The translations under genes and the position numbers were made by a program. A DNA stretch of 64,000 nt from Chromatiaceae bacterium. GTDB lineage: Bacteria > Pseudomonadota > Gammaproteobacteria > Chromatiales > Chromatiaceae. The notes beneath the pieces are model-generated. The model had not been told where the DNA came from. It did not search any database and was given only the letters and a program-made list of their open reading frames with translations. Below are positions 39,826 to 63,083 of the stretch, in pieces (within the stretch, counting starts at the first letter, position 1; each line of letters begins with the position of its first letter). Location: contig JACDZG010000014.1 in NCBI GenBank assembly GCA_013426805.1, positions 1-64,000 of the forward strand, read 5' to 3'.

Positions 39826-39841
39826 CGGCATAAAGTCTGCA
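39826..39841 (+). promoter_or_regulatory. Sigma-54 promoter for the FecB/BtuF-type ABC operon
   Basis: The sequence cGGCATAAAGTCTGCa has GG and GC separated by ten bases and a -12 box CTGCAT. Transcription would start about 28 bp before the ATG at 39880. Several positions differ from the TGGCACG-N4-TTGC consensus, so it is among the weaker of the set, but its placement is right. Confidence 0.55.
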
Positions 39842-39879
39842 TATGAAATAACGAAAACTGAATACAGAGTCCCTCTCCG

Positions 39880-41025
39880 ATGCGCTTTTCGCCACTCCCG
39901 CACCGTCACCACTATCGCGTCATCGATCGTCCGCGGTGTCCGGACCACCAGGTGGATCATCTCGCCGGCAGGCGAACCGGTGCCGCCTTGCTCGCTCTGC
40001 TTCTGCTGTTCGTGGCCGGAGCGACAGCCGTTCAGGCCCGAGAGCTGACGGATATGACCGGACACGTGGTGACCATCCCTGACCCCGTCACCCGGCCCTT
40101 CGGTGCCGCGCCTCCCTTGACCGCGCTGCTCTACGCCCTGGCGCCGGACTTGGTCAGCGCGCTCAATATCCCTTTTGCCCCTGGTTCCGGTGCCTATCTG
40201 CGTTCCGGCACGACGGACCTGCCGGTGTTGGGGAGTGCCATGGGTCACGGCCAGCGCGTCAATCCGGAAGCCCTCTTGAAGATCCGGCCGGACTTGGCTC
40301 TCGCCTGGCAGAACGCCTTCTCCGATTTGGACCGGGCGGGTATCGAGGCGCCTTTTCGCGCGATCGGTGTGCCGGTGTTCTATCTGAAGCTCGACACCCT
40401 GGACGACTGGCCGCCGGCCTTTATGTTGGCCGGGCGGATCCTTGGCCGGGAGGCGCGCGCGCGGAAACTGGCCGACTACATCCGCGATGCCCAGACGCGG
40501 GTGGCGGCGGCCGTGTCCGGTATTCCGGAAGCGAAGCAGGTGCGGGTCTACTACGCCGAGGGTCCGGATGGTCTGGCGACCGACTGCAATACCTCATTTC
40601 ATACCGAGGTCATCGCCCTGGCCGGGGCCTATAACGTCTACCGCTGTTCGTCCAAGACCATGGTCGGACAGGAGCGGGTCAGCCTGGAACAGGTCTTACT
40701 GTGGGCGCCCCAGGTGCTGCTGGTCCAGGACTCCCAGTTTGCAGCGACCGTTCGTCAGGACCCCCGTTGGGCGCAGGTGCCGGCGGTCGCCGCGGACCGG
40801 GTGATTCTGATCCCCCGGCAGCCGCTCAACTGGATTGATCGGCCGCCGTCGTTCATGCGGGCACTCGGCATCCGATGGCTTGCCAACGCGCTCTATCCTG
40901 AACGCCTGCCATTGGACTTGGAGGCCGAGACCCGAGCCTTCTATCGGCTGTTCTTCGGGGTTGAGCCCACTCGTGCTCAATTCGAGGCACTGTTGACCGC
41001 CGCCCCCGCGAGGACCGCGCCTTGA
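39880..41025 (+). CDS. FecB/BtuF-type ABC transporter substrate-binding protein
   Basis: 381 residues with a long basic N-terminus, then a signal peptide (LLALLLLFVAGATAVQA). The mature part follows the helical-backbone periplasmic binding fold of the iron-siderophore/cobalamin/haem group: LTDMTGHVVTIPDPVTRPFG, VNPEALLKIRPDLALAWQN, LDDWPPAFMLAGRILGREA and PPSFMRALGIRWLANALYP. The next two genes encode the permease (overlapping start) and ATPase. A second protein of this kind is at 51370. A sigma-54 promoter precedes the gene, tying its expression to nitrogen or metal control. The ligand is unknown. Confidence 0.82.
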   Translation: MRFSPLPHRHHYRVIDRPRCPDHQVDHLAGRRTGAALLALLLLFVAGATAVQARELTDMTGHVVTIPDPVTRPFGAAPPLTALLYALAPDLVSALNIPFAPGSGAYLRSGTTDLPVLGSAMGHGQRVNPEALLKIRPDLALAWQNAFSDLDRAGIEAPFRAIGVPVFYLKLDTLDDWPPAFMLAGRILGREARARKLADYIRDAQTRVAAAVSGIPEAKQVRVYYAEGPDGLATDCNTSFHTEVIALAGAYNVYRCSSKTMVGQERVSLEQVLLWAPQVLLVQDSQFAATVRQDPRWAQVPAVAADRVILIPRQPLNWIDRPPSFMRALGIRWLANALYPERLPLDLEAETRAFYRLFFGVEPTRAQFEALLTAAPARTAP

Positions 41026-41870
41026 ACCGTCCGGCCCAATGGCGGGCCATCGACGCGGCCGCGGACAGGGTGTCCGACACCGGCCAACCCGCGGACTCCG
41101 AGTCATTGGTCGCCGCCGCTCCGGCCGCGGGATCGGGCCAGGGCCCGGGGTTTCATCCGTTCAGGTGGCTGCTGACACTCGCGCTGCTGCTGCCGACCGC
41201 CATGCTGTTGTCCTTATCCTATGGGCGCTTCCCGTTGACGCCGGGAGAAGTGGCGTCCACCCTGTTCGGTCTTACGGACCCGGCCGCGGAACCGGCCCGC
41301 GTCGCCCTCTTGCACAGTCTGGTCTATGACATTCGACTGCCGCGGGTGTTGGCGGCCGTGCTCATCGGCGCCGCGCTGGCCGCATCCGGCACTGCCTATC
41401 AGGCGGTGTTCGTCAATCCACTGGTCTCGCCGGGAATTCTGGGCGTGCTGGCCGGTGCCAGCTTCGGGGCCGCGTTGGGGTTGCTGGCGGCGCAGGGGTG
41501 GTGGCTGGTGCAACTCCTGACCATCGGCGGCGGGCTCGCGGCCATGCTGATCGGCGTCGGTATCGGCCGACTGTTCGGCGCCCCATCGCTGGTGATGCTG
41601 GTGTTGGGCGGCATTTTCTCCGGCGCCCTGTTCACGGCCTTGCTGTCCCTGGCCAAGTATCTGGCCGACCCCTACGAACAGTTGCCGACCATTGTCTACT
41701 GGCTGATGGGGAGTCTCGGTCAGGTCGATGGCGCGACCTTGTGGCGGCTCGCTCCACCTATGCTCGGAGGCATCCTGGGGCTGGCGGTGCTCGGGCGCGC
41801 GCTGGATGCGCTCGCCATGGGGGACGACGCGGCGCGCTTGCGCAACGTGCGGCGCGGGTGGGGGCCATGA
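41022..41870 (+). CDS. FecCD-family ABC permease, C-terminally shortened
   Basis: 282 residues from a TTG at 41022 overlapping the stop of the binding-protein gene. FecCD/BtuC features are clear: LSYGRFPLTPGEV, DIRLPRVLAAVLIGAALAASG, YQAVFVNPLVSPGILGVLAGA and TIVYWLMGSLG. Family members usually run about 330-350 residues, and after the LGRALDALAMGDDAARLRNV sequence they continue through two or three more membrane segments, including a conserved GxIGFVGLxxPHxxR loop that contacts the ATPase. Here the protein stops with RRGWGP and the ATPase ATG overlaps the stop (ATGA). The missing part is about 60-80 residues, so function is doubtful unless a partner supplies it. Confidence 0.78.
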   Translation: MNRPAQWRAIDAAADRVSDTGQPADSESLVAAAPAAGSGQGPGFHPFRWLLTLALLLPTAMLLSLSYGRFPLTPGEVASTLFGLTDPAAEPARVALLHSLVYDIRLPRVLAAVLIGAALAASGTAYQAVFVNPLVSPGILGVLAGASFGAALGLLAAQGWWLVQLLTIGGGLAAMLIGVGIGRLFGAPSLVMLVLGGIFSGALFTALLSLAKYLADPYEQLPTIVYWLMGSLGQVDGATLWRLAPPMLGGILGLAVLGRALDALAMGDDAARLRNVRRGWGP

Positions 41871-42736
41871 GCGCAACGCCCCTGCTGGAGGCGCGGGATT
41901 TGCACTACGCCTACCCCGGCTCGATCGGTGGGTCGCGCGGTGCACCGGTTCTGCGCGGAGTCAGTCTCAGCCTCCATGCCGGGCAAGTCGTGGCGCTGCT
42001 CGGGGCCAACGGCAGCGGCAAGAGCACGCTGCTGCGGCTGATGCTGGGGCTGCTGGTGCCCAACGGGGGCACCGTCTGCCTGGACGGGCGGCGGCTGACC
42101 CATTTCAGCCGGCGCGCGGCGGCGCGGCGCATCGCCTATGTTCCGCAGAGTCACACGGTTCCCTTCCCCTATCAGGTCCGGGATCTGGTGACCCTGGGAC
42201 GCATCCCCCGGACCGGGCTCTTTCGCAATCTGAGTTTAATAGACCGCGCCGCGGTCGACGCCGCGTTGCAGCGGCTCGGGATCGGCCATCTGGCGAACCG
42301 CCCGTTCACCGAGCTGTCGGGCGGCGAGCGCCAGCTCTGCCTGATCGCCCGCGCCCTGGTCCAGGAGGCGCAGATTATCCTGATGGACGAGCCGGTCACC
42401 GGTCTCGATTTCGGCAACCAATGGCGCCTGCTGGACCTGATCCGCGAACTGGCAGCGGAGGGCCGGATCTTGGTCACATCCACCCACTATCCGGACCATG
42501 CACTCAATGCCGCGGACCGGGTGGTGCTGCTTCACGGCGGCCGGTTGCTGGCGGACGGCCTCCCCGAAACCGTGGTGACACCGGCCACGATCCGCACCCT
42601 CTATGGGATCGAGGTCAGCATCCACCGGCTCCCCGGCGGCCGCCTGGCCCTGGTGCCGGCACTGGCCGGGCGTCCGATCACCCGGCCGACCACAGGACCA
42701 GGGTCGATCCGGGCACCGGTGACGGCCCATGGCTGA
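41867..42736 (+). CDS. FecE/BtuD-type ABC transporter ATP-binding protein
   Basis: 289 residues from the ATG at 41867. Walker A is GANGSGKSTLLRLM, the Q-loop region YVPQSHTVPFPYQVRDLVTLG is typical of iron/cobalamin importers, the signature is LSGGERQLCLIARAL, Walker B IILMDEP and the H-loop STHYPDHAL. It completes the importer encoded from 39880. The coding sequence overlaps the permease stop by four bases. A longer upstream in-frame reading was rejected because it has no family similarity. Confidence 0.87.
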   Translation: MSATPLLEARDLHYAYPGSIGGSRGAPVLRGVSLSLHAGQVVALLGANGSGKSTLLRLMLGLLVPNGGTVCLDGRRLTHFSRRAAARRIAYVPQSHTVPFPYQVRDLVTLGRIPRTGLFRNLSLIDRAAVDAALQRLGIGHLANRPFTELSGGERQLCLIARALVQEAQIILMDEPVTGLDFGNQWRLLDLIRELAAEGRILVTSTHYPDHALNAADRVVLLHGGRLLADGLPETVVTPATIRTLYGIEVSIHRLPGGRLALVPALAGRPITRPTTGPGSIRAPVTAHG

Positions 42737-43367: not shown

Positions 43368-43389
43368 TCCCGGTGCGGGGCTGCGCTGA

Positions 43390-44502
43390 TCAGGTCGCCC
43401 GTTGGCCGCCGCGGTGGTACATCAACGCAGTCTCACGATAGGCCCTCAGCAGGTCGTGCGCGGGGGTGCGGCGGGCGGCCAGGAGTCGCTCCAATGGGGC
43501 CAGCGCTGCAACGGCCTCCGCCCTCCCGGCCTTGAACAAGGCGGTCCTGGCCTTGCTCAGGACCTCGTTCGACCCGGCCCGGATGGCCGTGTCCGCAAAT
43601 CCGTTGACGGCCCCTTGCCGGTAGAGCGCCAGATCCGTCTCCTCGCCGCGTGCGGGGAGATCGTCGGCGAGACAGACCCCTTCAAGCAAGTGGCAACAAG
43701 CGATCAGCAGATCCAGCGATGGCATGGCGTCGAACGCCTTGTACTCGATCCGTCCGGCCTCCCCCGGCAGTCGGGCCGGGGCGATCAGCCGGGAACGGGG
43801 CGCCCACTCGGGCAGGTCCGCCGGCCCGAGAAAGAGCTTGACGGCCGGTCGACAGGCGGCGCGCTCGAAGGTCCGCTTGGAATGGCCCGGCCAGATCGCA
43901 CCGGCGGCAAAGGGACTGCTGAAGCTGAAGGGGACCAGATAGGGGCTGTACCAATTGAGCTTGCGCGCGGCGTTCAGACTCTGCTCGGCAGTCCAGTCGG
44001 GCATCGACAGATTGATATCCGGTCCGTAGCTGAGCGTATAGACCTCGGCGCCGTCGAAGCTGCGATCGACGCGGCGCAGGTCCTGCTCAAAGGGGTTGAG
44101 CGGGGGCTCAAAGTCATAGCCGGCGCGTACCGGGTTGTACCCGACGATGGCGAGCCCGAGACCGTGGCGGGCCAGGACCTCGGTCAGTTGCGCTTCGATG
44201 GCGAGCAGTTCGGCAATCGCCCCTGCAATGTCCGGACACGCCGGTGTGCGGATCTCCACCCCCTTCACCGCCATGGTGCGAAAGCGGCCGTCGGGGTGGG
44301 AGCGCTCGTCGCCTTCCAGATACCAATAGCCGCTGCGTATCCCCAAGTCACCCGTGGCCAGGGTCGGATCGTCGCGCCCCGGCTTTTCTTCGAGCAGGTC
44401 GCGAATCGTCTCGAAGGACAGGTTGGTGAAGTCGCGGATACGTCCCGGCTCGGGCCCGGTCTGGTCGACGAGCAGATACTCAAACTCGATCCCGCAGTGC
44501 AT
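43390..44502 (-). CDS. GCS2-type glutamate-cysteine ligase-like enzyme
   Basis: 370 residues from the ATG at 44502, or 376 from a GTG at 44520 that overlaps the preceding gene. The carboxylate-amine ligase (YbdK/GCS2) pattern is visible: CGIEFEYLLVDQ, VKGVEIRTPACPDIAGAIAEL, SYGPDINLSMPDW and PGEAGRIEYKAFDAMPSLDLL with the catalytic acidic residues. It joins an amino acid to glutamate or a related gamma-carboxylate; the true substrate is unknown. It ends a minus-strand operon that starts at a sigma-54 promoter at 47928-47943, so it may make a small thiol or chelator used with metal handling. Confidence 0.68.
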   Translation of the reverse strand: MHCGIEFEYLLVDQTGPEPGRIRDFTNLSFETIRDLLEEKPGRDDPTLATGDLGIRSGYWYLEGDERSHPDGRFRTMAVKGVEIRTPACPDIAGAIAELLAIEAQLTEVLARHGLGLAIVGYNPVRAGYDFEPPLNPFEQDLRRVDRSFDGAEVYTLSYGPDINLSMPDWTAEQSLNAARKLNWYSPYLVPFSFSSPFAAGAIWPGHSKRTFERAACRPAVKLFLGPADLPEWAPRSRLIAPARLPGEAGRIEYKAFDAMPSLDLLIACCHLLEGVCLADDLPARGEETDLALYRQGAVNGFADTAIRAGSNEVLSKARTALFKAGRAEAVAALAPLERLLAARRTPAHDLLRAYRETALMYHRGGQRAT

Positions 44503-44510
44503 CGTCCGGC

Positions 44511-45089
44511 TCAGAGCCACACCAGATAGTCACTGGGGTGATTCGCCGGGGGCCGCGGGTCGGTGTCCTGGACCGGGGTCCCGAGGTATAGGAAGCCGAC
44601 GATCTGCTCCTGCTCGGTGAGATCCAGTTCGCGATGCACCCCGCGATCATACATCGGCCAACCGGAGCGCCAGACCCCACTGAAACCCAGCGCCCGGGCG
44701 GCCAACTGCATGGTCAGCACGGTGCCGGCAGCGCACAGTTGCTGGTCGAACAGCGGCACCGTCTGGTCGGCACGGGGGCTCGCGATGGCAACGATCACCA
44801 GGGGCGCCCGCAACGGCATCCGCGGGGCGCGCTCCACCACGTGCGGGGGCCGGCCGGCGGCCACCGCGGCCCGTTGCAGAGCCTGACCGAGGCGAATGCG
44901 GCCCTCGCCGCGCGCGGCGAGAAAACGAAAGGGTCGCAGCCGCCCGAAGTCGGGAACCCGCAGGGCCGCCCGCAGGATCAGATCCAGCGCCGCGTCCCCC
45001 GGGCCCGGGTCGGTCAGGCGATGGTGGGAACGGCGGTTGAGCAAGAGGTCCAGGGCCGGGTTTGCGCCCTCATCATTCAGGTCGGCCAC
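44511..45089 (-). CDS. Nitroreductase-family FMN oxidoreductase
   Basis: 192 residues from a GTG at 45089 that overlaps the ATPase gene by 13 bp. The FMN-binding nitroreductase fold is shown by LLLNRRSHHRLTDPGPGDAAL, ALRVPDFGRLRPFRFLA and LAARALGFSGVWRSGWPMYD, then IVGFLYLGTP near the end. It is closest in outline to the YdjA/minimal nitroreductase group, which are NAD(P)H-dependent flavoproteins acting as dimers. Its place in a metal-handling operon suggests reduction of a metal ion or quinone, which is inference. Confidence 0.82.
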   Translation of the reverse strand: MADLNDEGANPALDLLLNRRSHHRLTDPGPGDAALDLILRAALRVPDFGRLRPFRFLAARGEGRIRLGQALQRAAVAAGRPPHVVERAPRMPLRAPLVIVAIASPRADQTVPLFDQQLCAAGTVLTMQLAARALGFSGVWRSGWPMYDRGVHRELDLTEQEQIVGFLYLGTPVQDTDPRPPANHPSDYLVWL

Positions 45090-46087
45090 TGGACGTCTTC
45101 CTCAATGAGGTCGCCCTGGCGCAGGCGCTCGCGAATCGCCATCACCGCGGCATCCAGGGCCTCGATACGCACCAGATTGCGCTGCTCGCGCGCGCTGGTT
45201 TCGATGATCCGGGCGATGCCGCCGTTGCGAATCACCAGGCGCCGGTGCCCACGCAGGGCCAGCAGCGGGTCGTGCGTCGAGATGAAGACGATCTTCTCGC
45301 CACTGATCAACAGGTCCAGGGCGCGCTTGCGGTCGACTCCCGCGTTCTCGATCTCGTCGATCAGCACCACCGGGGAGGCCGACAACAGGGCCGCGTCGGC
45401 GATCATCAGCGCCCGGGTCTGGCCGCCGGAGAGCTGGGTGACCGGCACCTCCGGGGAGAACTGTTCACCCGTCAGTGTGTTGGCGCAGGCGATGACCTGC
45501 TCGGCCATGGCCTCGGGGTCGACCACCATGCGGCACTGGGCGTGCATGGTCACCAGTTCCCGCACGCCCAGGTCCACCACGAAGTTCATATTCTGGGAGA
45601 GCTGGGCGACCAGCTTGCGATCGAGGGCATCACGCTGGTCGTCGCCCGGCGGTTGGCCGTCCACCAGGACCCGGCGTCCGGTGGGCGTGTCGCCCTGGGC
45701 CAGGCACTCGATATCGGCCAACAGCCGGCTCTTGCCGCACCCGGTAGGACCCACGACACACAAGACCTCCCCCGCCTGCACGGTGAGCCGGACCGCCTCC
45801 GGCGCCCCCGACTTATCCCGCCCGCCGATCAGGGTCAGGCTCCCCACGCGCCGCCCCGCGGCGGCGGCCATTGCCTGGACCTCGTCGATCAGGCGCTGGA
45901 TATGGGCCAGCATCTGGCCGCGCTCCATGCCCGCATCCAGCAAGTCCTCATCGGCCAGCAGCGCCAGCCAGCCCCCCAGAGGCAGCGGCTGTTCGGGTGC
46001 CCTGAGTCCCAGCGCCGCGATGAAGTCCGCGACACAGGGATGGGCCGCCAGCAGGGCGTCCAAGGGCATGTCGGCGATGCTGTTCAT
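45077..46087 (-). CDS. Soluble ABC-type ATPase with N-terminal helical domain
   Basis: 336 residues from the ATG at 46087, which overlaps the GTPase stop by four bases. The first 80 residues form a helical domain (DALLAAHPCVADFIAALG, which resembles DUF1858). The ATPase follows: Walker A GPTGCGKS near 117, signature LSGGQTRALMIADAALL, Walker B VVLIDEIENAG and H-loop FISTHDP. No membrane permease gene is adjacent, and the Walker-B sequence (DEIENAG) resembles non-transport ABC proteins. With the GTPase and a signal-less binding protein it suggests an intracellular metal or cofactor-handling device. The family is not one I can name. Confidence 0.72.
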   Translation of the reverse strand: MNSIADMPLDALLAAHPCVADFIAALGLRAPEQPLPLGGWLALLADEDLLDAGMERGQMLAHIQRLIDEVQAMAAAAGRRVGSLTLIGGRDKSGAPEAVRLTVQAGEVLCVVGPTGCGKSRLLADIECLAQGDTPTGRRVLVDGQPPGDDQRDALDRKLVAQLSQNMNFVVDLGVRELVTMHAQCRMVVDPEAMAEQVIACANTLTGEQFSPEVPVTQLSGGQTRALMIADAALLSASPVVLIDEIENAGVDRKRALDLLISGEKIVFISTHDPLLALRGHRRLVIRNGGIARIIETSAREQRNLVRIEALDAAVMAIRERLRQGDLIEEDVQWPT

Positions 46088-46788
46088 GGGGACTCCGCGC
46101 GATCGGCGAAGCGCATCTTCTTGACGTTTCCGCGTTGGTGGGTCTCGCCGATGGCGGTTTCGCCCACGCAATAGGGACAGACAGCCGCCGGCATGGGAAA
46201 GCGCAGGCGACTGCCCTCCAGCGTCGGCGTGGGCGGGGCCTGGCGGCACTGCGCCGCCAGCGCCGTGGCGCCCTGGCCGGTGATCCCATTGCAGAATAGC
46301 GCTCGTGCCCCAGGGTTAGCGAGCCGAACCTGGTAGGCAAAGACCTCGCGCTCGACCTGGGAGACGATATCCCCCTTGGTAATAACGACAAGGTCCGCCA
46401 GCCGCAGCATCGGCCCGATTTTTTTCGGGGTCTGCACCCCGGCCAGCGCATCGACCACGCAGACCGCCAAGACCCCGTTGATATGGGGCGAACAGCGGTT
46501 GCACAGCCCGGCGCTCTCGCTGATCAGCAGATCGAACCCCTGGCGCAGTCCCCACGCCAGGCAGTCCGCCACGTTCGAGACGAAATAGTGATCCGGACAC
46601 AGACCTCCGGCCAGGCCCACGGCGACCGGGATGCCGTGACCTGCATAGCGCTCGTCGTCTGAGGTGGACAGGGCATCGAGCTTGACCACGCCTACCTTCA
46701 GACCATCGCGCCGCAGCAGGTCCACGACCCGCAGGATGACCGAGGTCTTACCCACTGATGGGGAACCCGCCACGGTGATCAACTGCAT
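46084..46788 (-). CDS. HypB/UreG/CobW-like SIMIBI GTPase
   Basis: 234 residues. P-loop GSPSVGKTS at the N-terminus, a switch-like DALSTSDDERYAG, then ISESAGLCNRCSPH, where an ESAG element carries a CxxC pair in the place used for metal by HypB and UreG, and VVITKGD as the base-specific motif. The C-terminal part adds CPYC and an HQRGN segment. Family members use GTP hydrolysis to deliver nickel, zinc or cobalt to enzymes. Here the partners are a binding-protein-like gene (10-bp overlap) and an ABC ATPase (4-bp overlap). The metal is unknown; in this context vanadium, molybdenum or iron are candidates. Confidence 0.75.
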   Translation of the reverse strand: MQLITVAGSPSVGKTSVILRVVDLLRRDGLKVGVVKLDALSTSDDERYAGHGIPVAVGLAGGLCPDHYFVSNVADCLAWGLRQGFDLLISESAGLCNRCSPHINGVLAVCVVDALAGVQTPKKIGPMLRLADLVVITKGDIVSQVEREVFAYQVRLANPGARALFCNGITGQGATALAAQCRQAPPTPTLEGSRLRFPMPAAVCPYCVGETAIGETHQRGNVKKMRFADRAESP

Positions 46789-47873
46789 GCCCGCACCCCC
46801 TCTCGCCGGGTCGCGTCACCAGACCAGGCGGCGAAGAAGCACTCGCCGGCCTGCCGACCGGCAACGGCCAGGTCCTGATCGCGGATCTGATCCCAACCCG
46901 GCCACTTCAGCCGGGCCCCGGGCGGGAAGGTCCCGGCCAGGTTGGCGGCCACCGGCGGATAGCAATTGCGGGCGAGCACGGCTCCCAGGGCCGGACCGGT
47001 GACATAGTTCACCAGGGGCGCCAACCGCGCCGCGGCCGACGCCTGGAGTAGATACCCGATGGGCATGGCGAGTGCCCCATCCGCAGGCCAGACCACCCGG
47101 GTGCGCTCCCGCCGCGGACACAGGTCCGCCTGGAGCCAGGGCAGGATGGCGATCGCCCCCAGGTTGCGGCTGTTGGAACCGGCCTGGGTGGCGGTGCGAA
47201 TATTGTGTTGCAGGTGCCGCACATTGGCGGCGAAGGCGCTGAGCCCGGCGCTGCCATATTCCTGGTGCAGCGCGTACAGCAGGTAACTGTTGTAGTCCTG
47301 ATAGGGGACCTGATCATTCGGGCGCCAGCCGCCGAAGACGATCTCGTCGGCCCAACACGGGTCGAGCAAGTCGCTCCAACTGAGCGGCGCTGGCCGACCC
47401 TTGAGGCGTTGCGCGTCCACCAGAAAGACGAACGGAATCACCGCGAAGGTCTGGAAGACGCCTAACGGGTCGGCCAATCCCGCCGCCTTGCAGACCGGAT
47501 GCCAGTCGGAGCGGGTCCGCGGATGCCCGACGGGGCGGTACCGGTCCAGGAGATTGGGGGTCAGGATGTCGTGGTAAAGGTGACTGACCAGCATGCCCGG
47601 CAGACCGGTGTCGGGGGGCGCGGCGGCCAGCCCGTCGAAGGGCCGGTACCACTCGCTCCCGGAGAGGAAGCAGCACTCCAGTCGGGTGCCGGTGGCCGCC
47701 TGATGGGCGGCGACGGCCCGGTCCAACCCGGCCTTGAAGGGGCGGCGTAACGGAATCGGCATACGACCGAGTAGATCCAGGCGGCCCAGGTCCGAGATCC
47801 GGGTCTCTGGGGCAGTGGCTTGGGACCTCAGCGTCAGTGCCGGGCGGGAAGGTTCGCGCAATTCGCGGATCAT
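46779..47873 (-). CDS. Binding-protein-like (SBP_bac type) protein without signal peptide
   Basis: 364 residues from the ATG at 47873. The sequence resembles periplasmic binding proteins of the iron/spermidine group (VFQTFAVIPFVFLVDAQRL, LSWSDLLDPCWADEIVFGG, NVRHLQHNIRTATQAGSNS, GPALGAVLARNCYPPVAANL), yet the N-terminus MIRELREPSRPAL has no hydrophobic core, so it should stay in the cytoplasm. A cysteine pair occurs at LECCFLS. It is the first gene of a minus-strand operon with GTPase, ATPase, nitroreductase and GCS2-like enzyme, started by a strong sigma-54 promoter. Confidence 0.68.
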   Translation of the reverse strand: MIRELREPSRPALTLRSQATAPETRISDLGRLDLLGRMPIPLRRPFKAGLDRAVAAHQAATGTRLECCFLSGSEWYRPFDGLAAAPPDTGLPGMLVSHLYHDILTPNLLDRYRPVGHPRTRSDWHPVCKAAGLADPLGVFQTFAVIPFVFLVDAQRLKGRPAPLSWSDLLDPCWADEIVFGGWRPNDQVPYQDYNSYLLYALHQEYGSAGLSAFAANVRHLQHNIRTATQAGSNSRNLGAIAILPWLQADLCPRRERTRVVWPADGALAMPIGYLLQASAAARLAPLVNYVTGPALGAVLARNCYPPVAANLAGTFPPGARLKWPGWDQIRDQDLAVAGRQAGECFFAAWSGDATRREGVRACS

Positions 47874-47927
47874 GGGGGACTCCTGACCGGGATTGATGGA
47901 TACGGGTCCATCTTGAGACTTAACCAG

Positions 47928-47943
47928 CGCAAAACCCGTGCCG
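47928..47943 (-). promoter_or_regulatory. Sigma-54 promoter of the GTPase/ABC-ATPase operon
   Basis: Read on the minus strand the sequence is cGGCACGGGTTTTGCg, an exact match to GGCACG-N4-TTGC. The predicted start lies about 44 bp before the ATG at 47873. It faces away from the promoter at 48218, with two GTAC elements in between. Confidence 0.75.
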
Positions 47944-48094
47944 CCGCGGGCGATGCGTTGGTTGTCCCGGTGCAACCAGTTGATCGGAAAGCGCGATGCC
48001 ACTGCCGAATACGGGCACTCAGCATCCAGTCGCGAATGAACCGTGTTGATCGGCCCAGCCGGTGTCCCTGGTCAACCGATCGGCGTTCGCGGAC

Positions 48095-48119
48095 GTACGC
48101 CCGGACCGCGCGAATGTAC
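48095..48119. promoter_or_regulatory. Paired GTAC elements between divergent sigma-54 promoters
   Basis: GTACGCCCG occurs twice as a direct repeat, at 48095 and 48116. The 21-base offset is two helical turns. The pair lies about 165 bp upstream of the minus promoter and 112 bp upstream of the plus promoter, suitable for one enhancer-binding protein serving both. Confidence 0.55.
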
Positions 48120-48217
48120 GCCCGTGTGCCCCGGGGCGGGCCTGGCCCAACTGGCGGTCCGCCAGCGCACCATTGATCCGGAACGCGAGGTTTGTAAAGG
48201 AAGCAGTGCCGCTATGG

Positions 48218-49181: not shown

Positions 49182-49214
49182 ACACCGTTATATCTTAAAA
49201 TAATTACGAACATA

Positions 49215-52506: not shown

Positions 52507-52508
52507 CC

Positions 52509-54676: not shown

Positions 54677-54692
54677 TGCAAGCCATGTGCCT
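54677..54692 (-). promoter_or_regulatory. Sigma-54 promoter of the TonB receptor gene
   Basis: On the minus strand AGGCACATGGCTTGCa carries GG-N10-GC with GGCAC and TTGCAT boxes. The predicted start is about 28 bases before the receptor ATG at 54638. Confidence 0.7.
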
Positions 54693-54752
54693 GCACTGCA
54701 GGGATGGCGACGCCGTTCGCTTACGAACAGGCTGATTCCGGCGTTCCGCCAT

Positions 54753-54830
54753 GTACGATGTCAAGGCGGATTCTCCAGTGCAGCGCGTTCGCGGATGTCA
54801 GTGTGCGCGACAATTTGCACCTCTGCGTAC
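54753..54830. promoter_or_regulatory. Two GTAC elements between divergent sigma-54 promoters
   Basis: GTAC at 54753 (tGTACGATg) and 54827 (cGTACGGAt) lie between the outward-facing promoters at 54677 and 54889, 62-137 bp upstream of each. Spacing differs from the N6 palindrome, so they count as half-sites. Confidence 0.4.
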
Positions 54831-54888: not shown

Positions 54889-54904
54889 CGGTACGTCGCT
54901 TGCC
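54889..54904 (+). promoter_or_regulatory. Sigma-54 promoter of the GNAT gene
   Basis: cGGTACGTCGCTTGCc has exact GG-N10-GC spacing, ACG and a full TTGC box. The predicted start is about 22 bp before the ATG at 54937. Confidence 0.6.
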
Positions 54905-56826: not shown

Positions 56827-56857
56827 GTACGCCGGCCGTGATGTACCAAAGCGAACA
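56827..56857. promoter_or_regulatory. GTAC pair overlapping a TGT-N10-ACA activator site
   Basis: GTAC occurs at 56827 and 56843, and the second lies within TGT-ACCAAAGCGA-ACA (56842-56857), an exact NifA-type pattern. The group is 100-130 bp upstream of the sigma-54 promoter at 56957. The stretch GTACCAAAGCGAACAG resembles GTACAAAACCCGCGAACAG at 60498. Confidence 0.55.
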
Positions 56858-56956: not shown

Positions 56957-56972
56957 TGGCACTGAACTTGCG
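56957..56972 (+). promoter_or_regulatory. Sigma-54 promoter of the NifU-like gene
   Basis: TGGCACTGAACTTGCg matches TGGCAC-N5-TTGC perfectly. Transcription would start near 56983, leaving a leader of about 108 bases before the GTG at 57091. A second, poorer GG-N10-GC occurs at 57049. Confidence 0.78.
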
Positions 56973-57090: not shown

Positions 57091-57387
57091 GTGCTTGAAC
57101 CAGACGCTTCCGATCCTTCCGTCTTTGCACCCGTGCGCAGCATCGCTGATCTCGGGACCATGGAGCTGGCCATGATCGATGCGGTCATTGCGGCGGCCCG
57201 ACCAGCGATTCAACGCGACGGCGGCGATATCGAACTGGCCGGAATCGTCGGCGACGTGGTCCGGATACGGCTCACCGGGGCCTGCACCCATTGCGCCCAG
57301 GCGGGTCAGACCCTGGGCGGTATTCGGCGGGAGATCATGCGCACCACCGGCCTACCGCTTCGCGTGTTACCCGCGCCTTGTGACTAG
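57091..57387 (+). CDS. NifU C-terminal (Nfu) domain protein
   Basis: 98 residues from a GTG. The Nfu domain is clear: MIDAVIAAARPAIQRDGGDIE, LAGIVGDVVRIRLTGACTHCAQ with the cluster-binding CxxC, then LGGIRREIMRTTGLP. The IscU-like and ferredoxin-like domains of full NifU are absent. Nfu proteins carry [4Fe-4S] clusters to target enzymes. With a sigma-54 promoter in front and phnE convergent at 57394 it probably supplies clusters to nitrogenase-related proteins. An internal ATG could make a shorter form. Confidence 0.85.
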   Translation: MLEPDASDPSVFAPVRSIADLGTMELAMIDAVIAAARPAIQRDGGDIELAGIVGDVVRIRLTGACTHCAQAGQTLGGIRREIMRTTGLPLRVLPAPCD

Positions 57388-57393: not shown

Positions 57394-58242
57394 CTAACTC
57401 TCGGGGTTGATGAACCGGCGCCGGAGCCTGGCGCCGACCACATTGATCAGCGTGACGAGACCGAGCAGGACCAGGATCAGCGCCAGGGCCTCGCGGTACT
57501 CGAAGAGGTGAAAAGCGGTGATGAGCTCCAGGCCCAGCCCACCGGCGCCGATCACTCCGAGCGTGGTCGCTGATCGCAGGTTGTGCTCCCAGCGGTAGAC
57601 GGCGACGTCCACCAGCCGCGGCAGGACCTGCGGCCAGATGGAAAAGCGCAGGATGCCGAGGCTGGACACCCCCTGGCTGCGCAGGGCGTTGCCGGGTCCC
57701 GGGTCGATGTGCTCCAGAATCTCGGCGCTGAACTTACCGAGCATGCCGGTGGAATGACTGGCGAGCGCCAGGACGCCGGGGAGTGGGCCGAAGCCCACGG
57801 CGGCGACGTACATGATCCCCCAGACCAAGGTCGGGATCGAACGACAGGTATTGAGCAGGAGGCGCACCGGGTTGCCGATCCAGGCCGGGGCGATGTTGCG
57901 AGCGGCAAGCGCCCCCAAGGGCAGCGCGATCACCAGCCCCAGGGCGGTGCCCACGATACTCATGCTGAGGGTCTCAAGGAGGGGGCGGCCCCACTGCCGC
58001 CAGCGGCTGAAGTCCGGCGGCAACGCATCCGCGGACAGTTGGATGATGGTCGGGATGGCGTCGGCATAACGGCCGGGGTTCAGCACCCCGGCATAGCCGC
58101 TCGCCAGTGCCACCACGAGCATCACCAACGCGGCGACACCCAACCGTCGCCGGTGTCGGCGGCGACTGGTCGCCAGAATCCCCGCGACCTGGTGGTCGGG
58201 GGGTGACGCGGATGGCGCCAACCTGGCGTCGGTCTTGATCAT
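57394..58242 (-). CDS. phnE: PhnE-type ABC transporter permease
   Basis: 282 residues with about six membrane segments. The binding-protein-dependent permease motif is GVIGAGGLGLELITAFHLFEY, preceded by the PhnE-like RWEHNLRSATTLG; ETLSMSIVGTALGLVIALPLGALAARN is the membrane-domain start. Its ATG overlaps the phnD stop by four bases. It forms the channel of the importer with phnD and phnC. Homologues move phosphonate, phosphite or phosphate; here the control region suggests a role linked to nitrogenase. Confidence 0.85.
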   Translation of the reverse strand: MIKTDARLAPSASPPDHQVAGILATSRRRHRRRLGVAALVMLVVALASGYAGVLNPGRYADAIPTIIQLSADALPPDFSRWRQWGRPLLETLSMSIVGTALGLVIALPLGALAARNIAPAWIGNPVRLLLNTCRSIPTLVWGIMYVAAVGFGPLPGVLALASHSTGMLGKFSAEILEHIDPGPGNALRSQGVSSLGILRFSIWPQVLPRLVDVAVYRWEHNLRSATTLGVIGAGGLGLELITAFHLFEYREALALILVLLGLVTLINVVGARLRRRFINPES

Positions 58243-59144
58243 TTCGCCGGCGGAACCGCGTCGGGGTTGTCCTTGCGGATCGCATCGATCCAGGTCCGCA
58301 CCCGATCGACATCGGAATCGACGCTGGGGATAAAGCGCTCGGCACGGAAGACGCCCAGCGCGGCCGGGTCATCGACCTGGATGAAGGCCTGACGGATCTC
58401 CTCCTTGAAGGCCGGGTCCAGCCCTTCGCGGAAGGTCCACATGTATTCCGGGATGGCCGGTGACTCCGCCAACACCCGCGTTGCCTTCGGGTCGATCTGG
58501 CCCTCCTTCAGCAGCCGGTTGTAGATCGGCAAGGACAGTCCACCCGCCGCCACCTTGTGATTCGCCACCGCCTGCGCCACGGCATCGTGCGCCCCCAGCA
58601 CCCGCAACTGATAGTCGCGTCCGGACACGAGCCCGACGTCCAGCAACTGGTAGCGCGGCACCCAGGTGCCGGAGGTCGAGGCCGGGTCGCCGAAGGCGAT
58701 CTCGCCCCCTTTCAGGTCCTCGAGGGACTTGGCCGGGCTATCCGCGGGGACGATGATCACGGCCTGGAAGGTCGGGCCGACGATGGCGTGGGATGGACGC
58801 GCGAAGGGTTCGAGTTTGGCCCGCCGACTCTGCAGGATATAGGTGACGGGGCCGAGATAGGCGATGTCGAGCCGACCGAAGCGCAGGGCCTCGCCGGTGG
58901 CGGCGTAGTTGGCCCCGACCACCATCTCGACCGGCAGCTCGAGACGCTTCTCCAGATAGGCCCGCAGCGGCTCGTTCAGCCGCATCACGGTCGGTGCGGA
59001 CTCGCCCGGCAACAGGCCGATCACCAGTTTATCCGGACGCGCGGCGGGGGACGGATCCGCCCAGGCCGGTCCGGACAGGCCGGCCAGGGCGAGCAGCGCG
59101 GCGAAGAACAGGTAGGGTCGGCGAACGAAGGACACTGATCTCAT
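58239..59144 (-). CDS. phnD: PhnD-type periplasmic oxyanion-binding protein
   Basis: 301 residues from the ATG at 59144, giving a proper signal peptide (FFAALLALAGLSGPAWA). The PhnD/PtxB fold is evident: VIGLLPGESAPTVMRLNEPL, DIAYLGPVTYILQSRR, FQAVIIVPADSPAKSLEDLKGG, AFGDPASTSGTWVPRYQL and LGAHDAVAQAVANHKV. The STSG segment is where family proteins hold the tetrahedral oxyanion. A close relative without signal peptide is at 48303. Vanadate is a tetrahedral analogue of phosphate, so it is a plausible ligand in this setting; phosphonate or phosphite remain alternatives. Confidence 0.85.
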   Translation of the reverse strand: MRSVSFVRRPYLFFAALLALAGLSGPAWADPSPAARPDKLVIGLLPGESAPTVMRLNEPLRAYLEKRLELPVEMVVGANYAATGEALRFGRLDIAYLGPVTYILQSRRAKLEPFARPSHAIVGPTFQAVIIVPADSPAKSLEDLKGGEIAFGDPASTSGTWVPRYQLLDVGLVSGRDYQLRVLGAHDAVAQAVANHKVAAGGLSLPIYNRLLKEGQIDPKATRVLAESPAIPEYMWTFREGLDPAFKEEIRQAFIQVDDPAALGVFRAERFIPSVDSDVDRVRTWIDAIRKDNPDAVPPAK

Positions 59145-59154
59145 GCGTGCGATC

Positions 59155-60198
59155 TCACTGGTTGGTGGGGGAAAGGCGTATTGCATCCGACGTCTTGGAC
59201 GGTGCCGGGAAGAGTTTGGCCTGCCGGTGTCCATCGAAGCCCGCGACCGGTCCGTCGTAGGCGACGCGACCAGCGGCCAGGCCGATCAGGCGGTCCGCCA
59301 GGCGGCGGGCGACATCGATCTGGTGCAGAACCAGCACGACGGTGATCCCGTTCGCGGTCACCAGGGAGCGGAATTCGTCGCCCAGCATGGTGGTCAGGGC
59401 CGGGTCGACCGCCGAGAAGGGCTCGTCCCCAAGCAGCAGGCTCGGCCTGCGCACCAGTGCGCGGGCGATGCCGACGCGCTGGCGCTCGCCGCCGCTCAGG
59501 TTTGCGGTGCGCGCGTTGGCGCGATGCAGCAGACCGACCTCCAGGAGCGCCTCGGCCGCGCGCCGCTGCAGGGTCTGGGGCCAGGGGAGCGGGCTCAACG
59601 CGGAGCGCAGGTCCGCCATCCCGAGCAGCACGTTATCCAGCGCGCTCAGGCGGTCGATCAGGGCGTGCTCCTGGAAGACAGTGGCGGTGCGCCGCCGGTG
59701 TCGTTGCAGCAGGGCCGGATCATCCAAGGCCCCTAAACCGCCGATCAGAATCCGGCCGGCAGTCGGTCGGATCAGACCGTTTAAGGCGCTGATCAGCGTC
59801 GTCTTCCCCGCGCCGGACGGCCCGACGATAGCCGTGATCGACCCCGCCTCAATGGTGAGCGAGACCTGCTTGAGCACCTCGTGACGGCCACGCCACACCG
59901 ACAGGTCGTCCACGATGATCGGGTGTCCATCCAGGGCCGCCGATTGCCGGTGCTGATCGCTATCGGGATCCGAGTGAACGACCGGCCAGGATGCCGGAGG
60001 CGGGAGCGGTTCAGATACGAATGGCGACAAAGGCAGGGTCCTCACCTTGCTGGGAGCTTGATCGGCACCCGCAAGACGCCCGCCGACGTATTGCTCAAAC
60101 ACGCCGGTGAAGCGCGCCAGGAACCGGTTATCCCATGGGTGACCGACTGCGGTTGCTCCGTTGTAAGCGTCAATAACAAACCTCCGAGAAGTTGACAT
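59155..60198 (-). CDS. phnC: PhnC-type ABC transporter ATP-binding protein
   Basis: 347 residues as read from the ATG at 60198; the ATPase core begins only around residue 93, and the N-terminal 90 residues are not family-like, so the true start may be further in. Walker A GPSGAGKTTLISALNGL, signature LSGGERQRVGIARALVRRPS, Walker B LLLGDEPFSAVD and H-loop LVLHQIDVARR. It leads the phnC-phnD-phnE operon, whose sigma-54 promoter is at 60261-60277, 60-70 bp upstream of the ATG at 60198. That spacing supports the long version. Confidence 0.82.
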   Translation of the reverse strand: MSTSRRFVIDAYNGATAVGHPWDNRFLARFTGVFEQYVGGRLAGADQAPSKVRTLPLSPFVSEPLPPPASWPVVHSDPDSDQHRQSAALDGHPIIVDDLSVWRGRHEVLKQVSLTIEAGSITAIVGPSGAGKTTLISALNGLIRPTAGRILIGGLGALDDPALLQRHRRRTATVFQEHALIDRLSALDNVLLGMADLRSALSPLPWPQTLQRRAAEALLEVGLLHRANARTANLSGGERQRVGIARALVRRPSLLLGDEPFSAVDPALTTMLGDEFRSLVTANGITVVLVLHQIDVARRLADRLIGLAAGRVAYDGPVAGFDGHRQAKLFPAPSKTSDAIRLSPTNQ

Positions 60199-60260: not shown

Positions 60261-60277
60261 CGCAAGGCGTATGCCAG
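60261..60277 (-). promoter_or_regulatory. Sigma-54 promoter of the phnCDE operon
   Basis: On the minus strand tGGCATACGCCTTGCg has exact GG-N10-GC spacing and a perfect TTGC box. The predicted start is near 60250, giving a 5' leader of about 50 bases. The exact GTAC-N6-GTAC palindrome lies about 165 bp upstream. Confidence 0.78.
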
Positions 60278-60353: not shown

Positions 60354-60369
60354 TGGCACGCGTCCTGCG
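60354..60369 (+). promoter_or_regulatory. Sigma-54 promoter pointing towards the activator gene
   Basis: TGGCACGCGTCCTGCg matches the consensus apart from C in place of T in the -12 box. Unlike the others, the GTAC cluster lies downstream of it (60414-60533), and the activator ATG is about 390 bp away. It may give a long leader, a small RNA, or be used for autoregulation. Confidence 0.55.
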
Positions 60370-60413: not shown

Positions 60414-60533
60414 GTACGAAGCGGGGCGGGCGTACCGATCGGTACGAATTCGGGGATTCGGAGTCGCTCACGCCCACTATCGCAATTGTTCGGATTGGTA
60501 CAAAACCCGCGAACAGCGCGTTCAGGTCGGTAC
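60414..60533. promoter_or_regulatory. GTAC cluster with exact GTAC-N6-GTAC (VnfA-type) operator
   Basis: GTAC occurs at 60414, 60432, 60442, 60498 and 60530, with one more at 60642. The pair at 60432-60445 is GTAC-CGATCG-GTAC, a perfect palindrome and the pattern known for Azotobacter VnfA (GTAC-N6-GTAC). Four copies continue as GTACGAA or GTACAAA. About one GTAC would be expected by chance in this span. Confidence 0.68.
60487..60502. promoter_or_regulatory. TGT-N10-ACA NifA-type site
   Basis: TGT-TCGGATTGGT-ACA is an exact NifA-pattern match overlapping the GTAC at 60498. It could be read by NifA, or be an incidental part of the GTACAAA element. Confidence 0.4.
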
Positions 60534-60621: not shown

Positions 60622-60650
60622 TTGACACTGCCGTTATATATGTACAGAAT
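60622..60650 (+). promoter_or_regulatory. Sigma-70 promoter for the activator gene
   Basis: A perfect -35 TTGACA at 60622-60627, a 17-base spacer and a -10 CAGAAT (4 of 6) at 60645-60650. Start near 60657 would leave a leader of about 105 bases to the ATG at 60762. A GTAC overlaps the spacer/-10 edge, so the activator could repress its own gene. Confidence 0.55.
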
Positions 60651-60761
60651 AGCGCCAATCCAAGAGGGTCGAAGCCCTTGCCTGCGGCCCGCGGCCCGCG
60701 CCCGTGCGGCGCGGCAGCAGGCGTCGGCGACGCCTTTTCAGCCCAGATTTGGTTACCACCT

Positions 60762-62435
60762 ATGACGACCGATAACCCAGCGGGCTTCAGTCACGATCCG
60801 TCACCCCGCTCCCGGATCATGCACGAGCACCGCGGCAGTCACCGCCCGTTACTGCCGGGCCTGACGCCGATGGCCTTTGCGCCGCCACAACTGTGTGAAT
60901 GCGATTTCGGGGAGTGCCGGACTCAACTCCTGCCCTTGCTCTACGAGATGAGCCGCCTGGTGACCGAGGCCGGCGACTTGCCGACCACGCTGCAGATCCT
61001 GCTGCAGTTGATGAAGCGCCACATGAAGCTGGTGCGTGGCGCCGTCACTCTGTATGACACGGACTCTGGGCAGATCTTCATCCACGAGAGCTTTGGTTTG
61101 ACCGAGGACGAGGTCGCCCGCGGCGTCTATCTGCTCGGCGAGGGCATCACCGGGCGAGTCGTCGAAAGCGGGCAGGCGATGATCATCCCCCGTATCAAGG
61201 ACGAGCCCAATTTTCTGAATCGCACCGACAGCCGCGGCGACATCGCCAACACCCTGCTCTCATTTCTGTGCGTGCCGATCCAGCGGGGCAAGAAGGTCTT
61301 GGGCACCATCAGCGCCGAGCGGGTCTATGAGAACCAGCAACTGCTCGATCTGGATGCCCGCGTTCTGGCGATCCTGGCGGCCACCACGGCCCAGGCAGTG
61401 GAACTCTATCTGCTGGAAAATCTTCAGAAGGTCGCGCTCCAAGCGGAAAACCGCCGTCTGCGCGGTGCGCTCAAAGAGAAATTCAAGCCCTCCAATATCA
61501 TCGGCAACTCCAAGCCGATGCAGGAGGTCTACGGGCTCATCGAGAAGGTGACCCGCTCCAAGACCACGGTACTGATCCTCGGCGAGAGTGGGGTCGGCAA
61601 GGAACTGGTCGCCAGCGCCATCCATTACAGCAGCCCGAATGCCGGCGGCCCCTTTATCAAATTCAACTGCGCCGCGCTGCCCGAGAGTGTCATCGAGAGC
61701 GAGCTGTTCGGACATGAACGAGGCTCCTTCACCGGGGCGACCGCATTACGCAAAGGTCGCTTCGAGGACGCCGGCGGCGGCACCATCTTTCTCGATGAGA
61801 TCGGGGAGCTGACACTGGCGATGCAGGCCAAGCTCCTGCGGGTACTCCAGGAACGGACCTTCGAACGGGTCGGCGGCAATACGCCCATCCATGTCGATAT
61901 CCGGATCCTCGCCGCGACCAATCGCGATCTGGCGGACATGGTGGCGAATGGCACCTTCCGTGAAGACCTCTATTATCGTCTGCATGTGTTCCCGATCACG
62001 ATCCCGCCGCTACGTGACCGCGGCAACGATATCATTGCACTGGCGGACCATTTCCTGACCAAGTTCTCTCAGGAGATGGGGGTCGAGGTCAAGCGCATTT
62101 CCACGCCGGCCATCAATATGCTGCTCTGCTATCATTGGCCGGGCAATGTGCGGGAGCTCGAGAATGTCATCGAGCGCGCCATTATCCTGGCCGAGGATGG
62201 CGCGGTACATGCCTTTAACCTACCGCCATCCCTGCAAACGCCGGTCGTGTCGGAATCCGCTCCGACGGGTTCGCTGGACGCCCGACTCAATGCCATCGAG
62301 TACGAAATGATCGTTGACGCACTGAAGGCGACCAATGGGAATACGACCGATGCGGCTGTCCAACTGGGCTTGACCCGGCGCGTGCTGGGACTGCGCATGG
62401 CAAAGTACGATCTCGACCGTAAGCTGTTCCGCTGA
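60762..62435 (+). CDS. vnfA: Sigma-54-dependent activator, VnfA/AnfA type
   Basis: 557 residues from the ATG at 60762; ATGs at 60819 and 60870 are in frame, and the last would place the cysteine motif at residues 9-16, close to Azotobacter VnfA. A CxCx4C motif (LCECDFGECR) precedes a GAF domain (about 75-215). The AAA+ domain has Walker A GESGVGKE, the sigma-54 contact loop GSFTGA, Walker B GTIFLDEIGEL and the WPGNVRELENV segment. A Fis-type HTH ends it (TDAAVQLGLTRRVLGLRMAKY). Cysteine-rich motifs of this kind hold an Fe-S cluster in VnfA and AnfA. Upstream is the GTAC operator, downstream nifX- and nifE-like genes. NifA proper or AnfA are the alternatives. Confidence 0.83.
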   Translation: MTTDNPAGFSHDPSPRSRIMHEHRGSHRPLLPGLTPMAFAPPQLCECDFGECRTQLLPLLYEMSRLVTEAGDLPTTLQILLQLMKRHMKLVRGAVTLYDTDSGQIFIHESFGLTEDEVARGVYLLGEGITGRVVESGQAMIIPRIKDEPNFLNRTDSRGDIANTLLSFLCVPIQRGKKVLGTISAERVYENQQLLDLDARVLAILAATTAQAVELYLLENLQKVALQAENRRLRGALKEKFKPSNIIGNSKPMQEVYGLIEKVTRSKTTVLILGESGVGKELVASAIHYSSPNAGGPFIKFNCAALPESVIESELFGHERGSFTGATALRKGRFEDAGGGTIFLDEIGELTLAMQAKLLRVLQERTFERVGGNTPIHVDIRILAATNRDLADMVANGTFREDLYYRLHVFPITIPPLRDRGNDIIALADHFLTKFSQEMGVEVKRISTPAINMLLCYHWPGNVRELENVIERAIILAEDGAVHAFNLPPSLQTPVVSESAPTGSLDARLNAIEYEMIVDALKATNGNTTDAAVQLGLTRRVLGLRMAKYDLDRKLFR

Positions 62436-62483
62436 ATCCTGTTTTTCCCTGAATGATGATCCGCTCAATGACTGGAGCCGCCG

Positions 62484-62882
62484 ATGCATACCGACCCCGC
62501 TGTTTTGCCGCCCACCGTCACCCCCGACCCCAACGAGATCCTGGTCGCAGTCGCCACCAAGGGCGATGGACAGATCAACCAGCATTTCGGCCATGCGGAT
62601 GAATTTACTGTCTATGCGGTGAGTCCGGACGGTGTCCGCTTCGTCGCGGTCAGGACAGTTGAGCATTATTGTCAGGGTGGCTTCGGCGACGAGGATAAGC
62701 GTGATGTCATCCTGCGTGCCCTGGCCGACTGCACGGCACTCTTTGTGGCACGGGTAGGAGAGGGTCCGCGGGCCAAGCTTGCCGGGGCTGGTATTGTGGC
62801 AGTTGATACGTATCCCTTTGGCGCGATCGAGCCATCGATCACTGAATGGTTCCGTACCACGGGTGGTCAAGCAGCCGGGTGA
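62484..62882 (+). CDS. NifX/NifB-C-domain cofactor-binding protein
   Basis: 132 residues: a 20-residue proline-rich lead, then the NifX/NafY/NifB-C domain with ILVAVATKGDGQINQHFGHA, DEFTVYAVSPDGVRF and VEHYCQGGFGDEDKR, and the late ARVGEGPRAKLAGAG. The HFGHA and HYCQGG elements are also found at the end of NifB. Such proteins hold NifB-co or a cofactor precursor for transfer to NifEN. It follows the activator gene by 48 bp and precedes nifE/vnfE, so it fits VnfX-type duty. Confidence 0.82.
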   Translation: MHTDPAVLPPTVTPDPNEILVAVATKGDGQINQHFGHADEFTVYAVSPDGVRFVAVRTVEHYCQGGFGDEDKRDVILRALADCTALFVARVGEGPRAKLAGAGIVAVDTYPFGAIEPSITEWFRTTGGQAAG

Positions 62883-63067
62883 GCGCGAGTGCTCGGAAAT
62901 GTGCGCGCCGGGTCTATGCGTTCCCGTTCGTACGCTTCTTGCGCCCGGATCGCATGGATGCAACTGCCCACCGGCTCTGCCTCCTTCCACCTACCTGATT
63001 GATTCTAAGACATTCCCGTCGCCGCTGGTGTAACGGGAACGCGCCTGTGATCAGGGTCCTATACGGT

Positions 63068-63083
63068 TGGCATCGCCGTTGCA
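63068..63083 (+). promoter_or_regulatory. Sigma-54 promoter of nifE/vnfE
   Basis: TGGCATCGCCGTTGCA is close to the full consensus, with GG-N10-GC spacing and TTGCA. Predicted start is about 32 bp before the ATG at 63126. GTAC elements occur upstream at 62930 and 62854, the latter inside the nifX-like gene. Confidence 0.78.

Follow-up and report, generated by a model that had tools for sequence, protein, structure and literature searches.

Introduction

Do the nine sigma-54-like promoter sequences that stand among genes for metal uptake, metal handling and nitrogenase in a bacterium of the Chromatiaceae belong to one regulon, and can a single activator account for them? The DNA analysed here, referred to as the window, comprises bases 1–64000 of contig C75 (87,494 bp) from a draft genome of 7.61 Mb in 349 contigs, and the original prediction had all nine sites driven by one VnfA-like protein. 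We conclude that the island very probably represents a vanadium nitrogenase regulon under VnfA (probability about 0.86), because the density of sigma-54 sites, their coupling to a VnfA-type DNA element, the rank of that element in a dyad search, the spacing of its pairs, the conserved promoter distances and the likeness of the genes to those of Azotobacter vinelandii all point to this system. The promoters, elements, statistics, conservation and gene identities reported below are read directly from the DNA. According to excerpts of a 2021 study on Lake Cadagno (PMC8346585), molybdenum nitrogenase is the only type encoded in any purple sulfur bacterial genome sequenced to that date, and the sulfidic, molybdenum-poor habitat of these bacteria should favour alternative nitrogenases. 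The regulatory DNA of the VnfD-encoding genome studied here looks intact, and the use of vanadium nitrogenase by purple sulfur bacteria is testable, two cultured relatives being available.

Promoter sites and their density

All nine sites were present at the predicted places with the exact GG-N10-GC spacing (9/9), each inside a 16-bp element beginning at the coordinate by which we name it, and their matrix scores span 10.4 to 16.4 bits. Scoring was based on a sigma-54 weight matrix derived from the consensus TGGCACG-N4-TTGCW, which was applied to the region of 39.8–63.2 kb (23.4 kb) and, as background, to 1.17 Mb in 60 loci elsewhere in this genome; for a sliding-window comparison we used 2,061 windows of 23.4 kb on 14 contigs. 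The region contains 10 sites of at least 12 bits against 1.3 expected per 23.4 kb and seven of at least 13 bits against 0.7 expected, and the richest of the background windows held five and three, respectively. An equal density was thus not found in the stretches examined, about a fifth of the genome, and of the 11 sites of at least 12 bits in the window, only one falls outside the region. The predicted sites account for seven of the 10 at the lower and six of the seven at the higher threshold, with 48218 and 54889 scoring below 12 bits; the three further sites of at least 12 bits (41889, 47504 and 61399) are intragenic and lack a VnfA element.

Counting consensus letters gave the same picture at high stringency, with four sites matching six of the seven non-core letters (0.25 expected) and 11 sites matching five (4.6 expected). 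Bare GG-N10-GC spacing carries little meaning, because 43 matches were observed against 29 expected at four of seven letters. Such common spacing and the intragenic position of three of the ten best sites are what would be expected if the sites were chance matches picked out of GC-rich DNA; the density, the coupling to VnfA elements and the conservation described below contradict this explanation, which we regard as very improbable. For the set as a whole, chance was rejected on the background density, the element census and the conservation.

The predicted placement of the sites needed some correction. Eight of them stand 48–133 bp before a gene, measured from the GG to the start codon, instead of the 25–110 bp given originally, and the predicted exception, 60354, lies 407 bp away. 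All sites are intergenic, with the proviso, for 47928 and 54889, that translation really begins at ATG 47879 and ATG 54938, respectively; these starts are favoured by the proteins of relatives and the position of the Pfam domains.

The VnfA element

The GTAC elements mentioned in the original prediction correspond to GT(T/A)C-N6-GTAC, which is the motif obtained for VnfA1 of A. vinelandii by chromatin immunoprecipitation sequencing, according to excerpts of PMC9542535, to which all our statements from this source refer. They had been placed between outward-facing promoters in three gaps; this holds for the gaps at 47.9–48.2 and 54.7–54.9 kb, but at 60.3 kb the elements lie beyond 60354, on the vnfA side. 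Control of all nine sites by one VnfA-like protein is supported for seven, which have the published motif 58–252 bp upstream, 54889 being the weakest of them. It is doubtful for 60354, and 39826 is unsupported as a VnfA target. The vnfD promoter beyond the window likewise has the motif upstream, giving eight VnfA-type promoters, listed by the first G of the GG as 47942(-), 48219(+), 54691(-), 54890(+), 56958(+), 60275(-), 63069(+) and C75:67950(+), the last preceding vnfD. The count leaves out an overlapping frame of lower strength at 54684.

The whole genome contains 131 such elements, 10 of them on C75 where 1.5 were expected. We counted an element as facing a promoter if a sigma-54 site of at least 10 bits pointed away from it at a distance of 40–350 bp, which was the case for 8 of the 10 elements on C75 and for 6 of 120 off the contig (Fisher p ~8e-8). 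With 120 of the 121 off-contig elements examined, these six (L157, L163, L168, L186, L187 and L212) compare with 6.7 expected from the site densities, and on this count we rejected an extension of the VnfA regulon to other contigs; a genuine VnfA target may be among the six. The strongest of the six, in L212 (C319:18401-19315), scores 14.9 bits at 344 bp from its element and is probably a chance match.

In a search over all 4+4 dyads with gaps of 0–12, to which the motif was not supplied, GTTC-N6-GTAC ranked first both in six gaps of this genome (6/6) and in six gaps of Thiobaca (5/6). Over 15 gaps from three genomes it was joint first, being present in 13, in a chosen set that included three Imhoffiella gaps selected for holding the element and left out the 39.8-kb gap of this genome, the NifU and FecB gaps of Thiobaca, and the binding-protein, vnfD and vnfZ gaps of Imhoffiella. 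With one mismatch allowed, element pairs 28–32 bp apart occur in four of six gaps here and in 9 of 12 chosen gaps of the relatives, and a background of 773 kb (40 of the 76 loci, with 418 loose elements) yielded none. In the TonB receptor gap, such a pair lies near the promoter, at -118/-90 from the start here and at -119/-91 in Thiobaca; a close pair of this type may mark promoters used only without vanadium.

The same gaps allow a second explanation to be weighed, namely that the sites are real sigma-54 promoters driven by NifA or NtrC within a general nitrogen regulon. Using the patterns TGT-N10-ACA for NifA and GCAC-N7-GTGC for NtrC, we found the former in three of seven gaps (39704, 56842 and 60487) and the latter in none. 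The matches at 56842 and 60487 are the VnfA element itself with a flanking T and A, where cross-binding of NifA is conceivable; the four other gaps have no NifA pattern, and the element that the gaps share is the VnfA1 motif. General nitrogen control of the set is therefore unlikely, and the site patterns led us to reject NifA or NtrC as the common activator of the six VnfA-type gaps. Site 39826 differs, as NifA could well drive it: the NifA-type sequence at 39704 stands about 120 bp before it, and it is a possible NifA promoter. The transporter genes downstream of this site show a further peculiarity. The FecCD-type permease (41022-41870) matches only positions 3–210 of 311 in the model, its stop codon runs into the beginning of the gene that follows, and the homologues in Thiobaca and Imhoffiella are full length, suggesting that the Fec-type transporter may be impaired.

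Conservation in related bacteria

BchX, BchY and BchL exceed their cut-offs in the host genome, which belongs to the same family as two genomes matching Thiobaca trueperi and Imhoffiella purpurea, both members of the Chromatiaceae. That the host is a purple sulfur bacterium is a well-founded inference from these findings. VnfD exceeded its cut-off in 3 of 210 genomes of the order, and the same three contain the gene for the SBP_bac_6 binding protein (E 1e-50 or better). The island is patchy in distribution, because neither gene occurs in any of the seven listed congeners and so few genomes of the order carry them. No paper describing vnf genes in Chromatiaceae was found among the matches listed in the open-access literature searched. 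These species may already be listed by Addo and Dos Santos 2020, which PMC9542535 cites for vnf clusters in proteobacteria. Neither Imhoffiella nor names beginning with Thio- occur in the main text of PMC5328986.

Thiobaca combines a sigma-54 site and an exact element before vnfD, vnfEN, the PhnC-type operon, the binding-protein operon (10.7 bits) and vnfZ, and its TonB receptor promoter lies at -54 from the start, compared to -53 here, with four one-mismatch elements. Imhoffiella has exact elements before vnfEN, before the Fec-type operon opposite vnfA and before a TonB receptor gene. The distances of the sigma-54 sites from the genes are closely similar in this genome, Thiobaca and Imhoffiella, with -101, -97 and -99 for vnfD, -57, -56 and -57 for vnfEN and -84, -90 and -78 for vnfZ.

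Several observations weigh against a VnfA regulon as outlined here. Three element-facing promoters of at least 13 bits occur off the contig, compared to six on C75. The gap of 39826 contains no VnfA element within one mismatch, and the site itself fits only three of the seven non-core consensus letters; 54889 is the lowest-scoring of the seven, and no orthologue of its GNAT gene was seen in the relatives' loci. At 60354, VnfA elements stand on the downstream side and none upstream. Among the relatives, vnfD and vnfZ of Imhoffiella have one-mismatch elements only, the NifU-like gene of Thiobaca has a 14.4-bit site and no element, and a sigma-54 site is missing before the FecB gene of Thiobaca. 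Of nine relatives' gaps before the binding-protein gene, four hold an exact element and five only one with a mismatch, and the gap in L103 lacks a sigma-54 site of 9.5 bits. In four of the relatives' gaps before this gene (L094, L098, L099 and L101), GTTC-N6-GAAC replaces GTTC-N6-GTAC, and their sigma-54 sites start with TGGCCC; these gaps may mark a variant recognition site.

The activator and its control

The activator encoded at 60762..62435 is VnfA, as judged by its neighbourhood, its identity to vnf-linked homologues (82% and 84%) and its N-terminal cysteine motif. This motif reads CECDFGEC here, in Thiobaca and in Imhoffiella, and CECDLGEC in a metagenome-assembled genome of Azoarcus. 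Conserved N-terminal cysteines are a feature of VnfA activators.

In front of vnfA, a ModE-like box (CGTTATATATGTACAGAATAGCG) with two mismatches to the half-site pattern overlaps a sigma-70-like promoter. Boxes of this type occur in the vnfA gaps of all three genera, with no mismatch in Thiobaca and one in Imhoffiella, and only three with up to two mismatches were found in 1.49 Mb plus C75. In A. vinelandii, ModE represses vnfA1 (PMC9542535). Another of these boxes, with two mismatches at L004 11518 (C75:73518), lies upstream of a region of ModE homology and would fit self-repression. A ModE-like site with three mismatches at 49186-49208 separates the vnfZ-like gene from two paired genes, which encode a protein with a molybdopterin-binding domain and one resembling MauG.

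The presence of 60354 in the same gap raises the alternative that it is a genuine second vnfA promoter, activated by VnfA from the downstream elements and providing positive feedback above the ModE-controlled promoter. Its score of 13.0 bits and the aligned sites in Thiobaca (11.4 bits) and Imhoffiella (8.2 bits) would agree with this, as would the arrangement of vnfA2 and vnfZ-vnfA3 in A. vinelandii, each of which is preceded by two promoters, one proximal and one distal, the latter being of the sigma-54 type and dependent on VnfA1 (PMC9542535). Such a promoter would give a leader of roughly 380 nt, its elements lie downstream and the Imhoffiella match is weak, so that we consider this role rather doubtful. 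A start of vnfA at the ModE-box promoter is likelier than one at 60354.

Vanadium sensing and the Fe protein

No second VnfA was found in the genome, where the next match shows 46% identity; Thiobaca has one further VnfA homologue (61%), located beside its other alternative nitrogenase genes. VnfZ and VodA, both PhnD-type proteins, and the vod genes have been described in A. vinelandii (PMC9542535). The product of the gene at 48303 is a PhnD-type protein without a signal peptide and fits VnfZ by this description. It is 68% identical over 255 amino acids to the periplasmic PhnD-type homologue at 58239, which fits VodA, and the absence of the signal peptide was checked on the N-termini from three genomes. 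A search for VnfZ across the class returned this genome only, among 369. Co-transcription of vnfZ with vnfA3 was not found, as the gene is divergent from the binding-protein operon; in none of the three genomes (this one, Thiobaca and Imhoffiella) does vnfZ adjoin vnfA. Because neither a vnfA3 partner nor a second VnfA was found, we named it vnfZ-like.

A vnfH gene was not found in the draft genome, where a gap is possible. The NifH-like genes on contigs C69, C49 and C278 comprise one nifH and those for BchX (C49) and BchL (C278); one nifH was also found in Imhoffiella, and in Thiobaca a further copy accompanies the other alternative nitrogenase genes. The nifH promoter scores 18.8 bits with TGT-N10-ACA upstream, and no VnfA element within one mismatch was detected in the 780 bp scanned. 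NifH1 of Anabaena variabilis can replace VnfH, according to excerpts of PMC4284476. Because of this precedent and because only one nifH and no vnfH were found, the vanadium nitrogenase of this organism probably uses NifH. We tentatively propose, at slightly less than even odds, that purple sulfur bacteria have a reduced vanadium circuit. In it, the activity of the single VnfA would be set directly by VnfZ, an importer binding protein that has become a vanadate sensor in the cytoplasm; VnfA would control vnfZ in turn, closing a feedback loop, and VnfA3 would be absent. The vanadium nitrogenase would lack an Fe protein of its own and borrow NifH made from a NifA-type promoter without a VnfA element.

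Genes of the island

The coordinates of all features are collected in Table 1. The five-gene operon is read from right to left, with the binding protein first and the GCS2-type ligase last. SLAC1 was rejected as a VnfA target, because the 420 bp ahead of its listed start contain no sigma-54 site of at least 9.5 bits. Beyond the window, vnfEN is followed by NifX/NafY-type genes and genes for VnfD, VnfG, VnfK, modD, ModE and molybdate-type ATP-binding cassette (ABC) proteins. The promoters at 63069 (vnfEN) and C75:67950 (vnfD) bring the structural and cofactor genes of the vanadium nitrogenase into the regulon.

Table 1. Features of the vanadium nitrogenase island in the window
Feature	Position	Strand	Remarks
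Sigma-54-like site before FecB-type binding-protein gene	39826..39841	+	13.5 bits
Sigma-54 promoter, five-gene operon	47928..47943	-	13.8 bits; VnfA element 150 bp upstream
Sigma-54 promoter, vnfZ-like gene	48218..48233	+	11.6 bits; VnfA element 128 bp upstream
Sigma-54 promoter, TonB receptor	54677..54692	-	16.4 bits; exact element 58 bp upstream; aligns with Thiobaca promoter
Sigma-54-like site before GNAT gene	54889..54904	+	10.4 bits; exact element 140 bp upstream
Sigma-54 promoter, NifU-domain gene	56957..56972	+	15.2 bits; VnfA element 108 bp upstream
Sigma-54 promoter, PhnC/PhnD/PhnE-type operon	60261..60276	-	15.7 bits; exact elements 164, 220 and 252 bp upstream
Uncertain sigma-54-like site, some 400 bp ahead of vnfA	60354..60369	+	13.0 bits; upstream element absent
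Sigma-54 promoter, vnfEN	63068..63083	+	15.6 bits; VnfA element 142 bp upstream
VnfA element pair, common to divergent promoters	48085..48129		48085 exact, 48116 one mismatch; 31 bp apart
VnfA elements, TonB/GNAT gap	54715..54830		54715 GTTC-N6-GAAC, 54743 exact, 54817 one mismatch
VnfA element before NifU-domain gene	56843..56856	-	
Three exact VnfA elements	60432..60533		60432, 60488, 60520
VnfA element before vnfEN	62920..62933	+
ModE-like box overlapping sigma-70-like promoter	60632..60654	+	TTGACA-N17-CAGAAT; before vnfA
Five-gene operon	43390..47879	-	GCS2-type ligase, nitroreductase, ABC ATPase, CobW/HypB-like GTPase, SBP_bac_6 binding protein; Pfam
vnfZ-like gene	48303..49181	+	PhnD-type binding protein without signal peptide
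Periplasmic binding protein	51370-52716	-	with TonB receptor
TonB-dependent siderophore-type receptor	52509-54638	-
GNAT acetyltransferase gene	54938-55380	+
SLAC1 gene	55425-56672
NifU-domain (VnfU-like) gene	57091..57387	+	PF01106
PhnC/PhnD/PhnE-type ABC transporter genes	57394..60198	-	probable vanadate importer, vod type
vnfA	60762..62435	+	GAF, sigma-54 AAA+ and Fis-type helix-turn-helix domains
NifX/NafY-type cofactor-binding gene	62484..62882	+	PF02579
Fused vnfEN	63126..64000	+	continues to C75:65981

Proposed regulation

From these features we infer binding and activation by VnfA, repression by ModE, and vanadate as the ligand of the importer and of VnfZ. In the presence of molybdenum, ModE would occupy the box at 60632 and keep vnfA off. 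In its absence, VnfA would be made and bind to GT(T/A)C-N6-GTAC, often at pairs about three helical turns apart, and the bound protein would activate sigma-54 polymerase by looping at eight promoters. The predicted targets are the operon for the binding protein, GTPase, ABC protein, nitroreductase and ligase, vnfZ, the TonB-receptor operon, the GNAT gene as the least certain one, the VnfU-like gene, the PhnCDE-type vanadate importer, vnfEN and vnfDGK. The VnfZ-like protein, an importer-type binding protein without a signal peptide, probably reports the vanadium status to the sole VnfA, because no second VnfA was found.

Comparison with known systems

The VnfA1 regulon of A. vinelandii shares with the island a motif that is often paired, sigma-54 promoters, TonB receptors, vnfE, vnfD and vnfZ as targets, and repression by ModE (PMC9542535). 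The likeness extends to the gap with divergent promoters before the five-gene operon, whose gene order equals that of Avin_02430-02390, a set of genes transcribed in A. vinelandii from a gap where divergent sigma-54 promoters depend on VnfA1, and the TonB receptor with its binding protein is comparable to the class B targets (PMC9542535). The NifU-domain gene resembles VnfU as described in the literature. In contrast to A. vinelandii, the genes stand on one contig within ~33 kb, vnfEN is fused, no vnfH was found, the VnfU-like gene is separated from vnfA, and vnfZ stands alone, divergent from the five-gene operon. One VnfA replaces VnfA1-3, so that vanadium sensing by one VnfA and one VnfZ-like protein would be simpler than the entangled system of three VnfA paralogues and VnfZ.

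As in other Vnf systems, VnfD, VnfG and VnfK all exceed the NCBIfam cut-offs, whereas a dedicated Fe protein was not found here. According to excerpts of PMC4284476, the vnf and vup genes of Anabaena variabilis similarly combine a molybdenum-repressed vanadium nitrogenase with vanadate uptake, but the Vup transporter is of the tungstate type and the regulators are the repressors VnfR1 and VnfR2, whereas we find a PhnD-type importer and a sigma-54 activator. The kind of regulon is known in detail from A. vinelandii; what differs is its single-island, single-VnfA form in a phototrophic host of the Chromatiaceae type.

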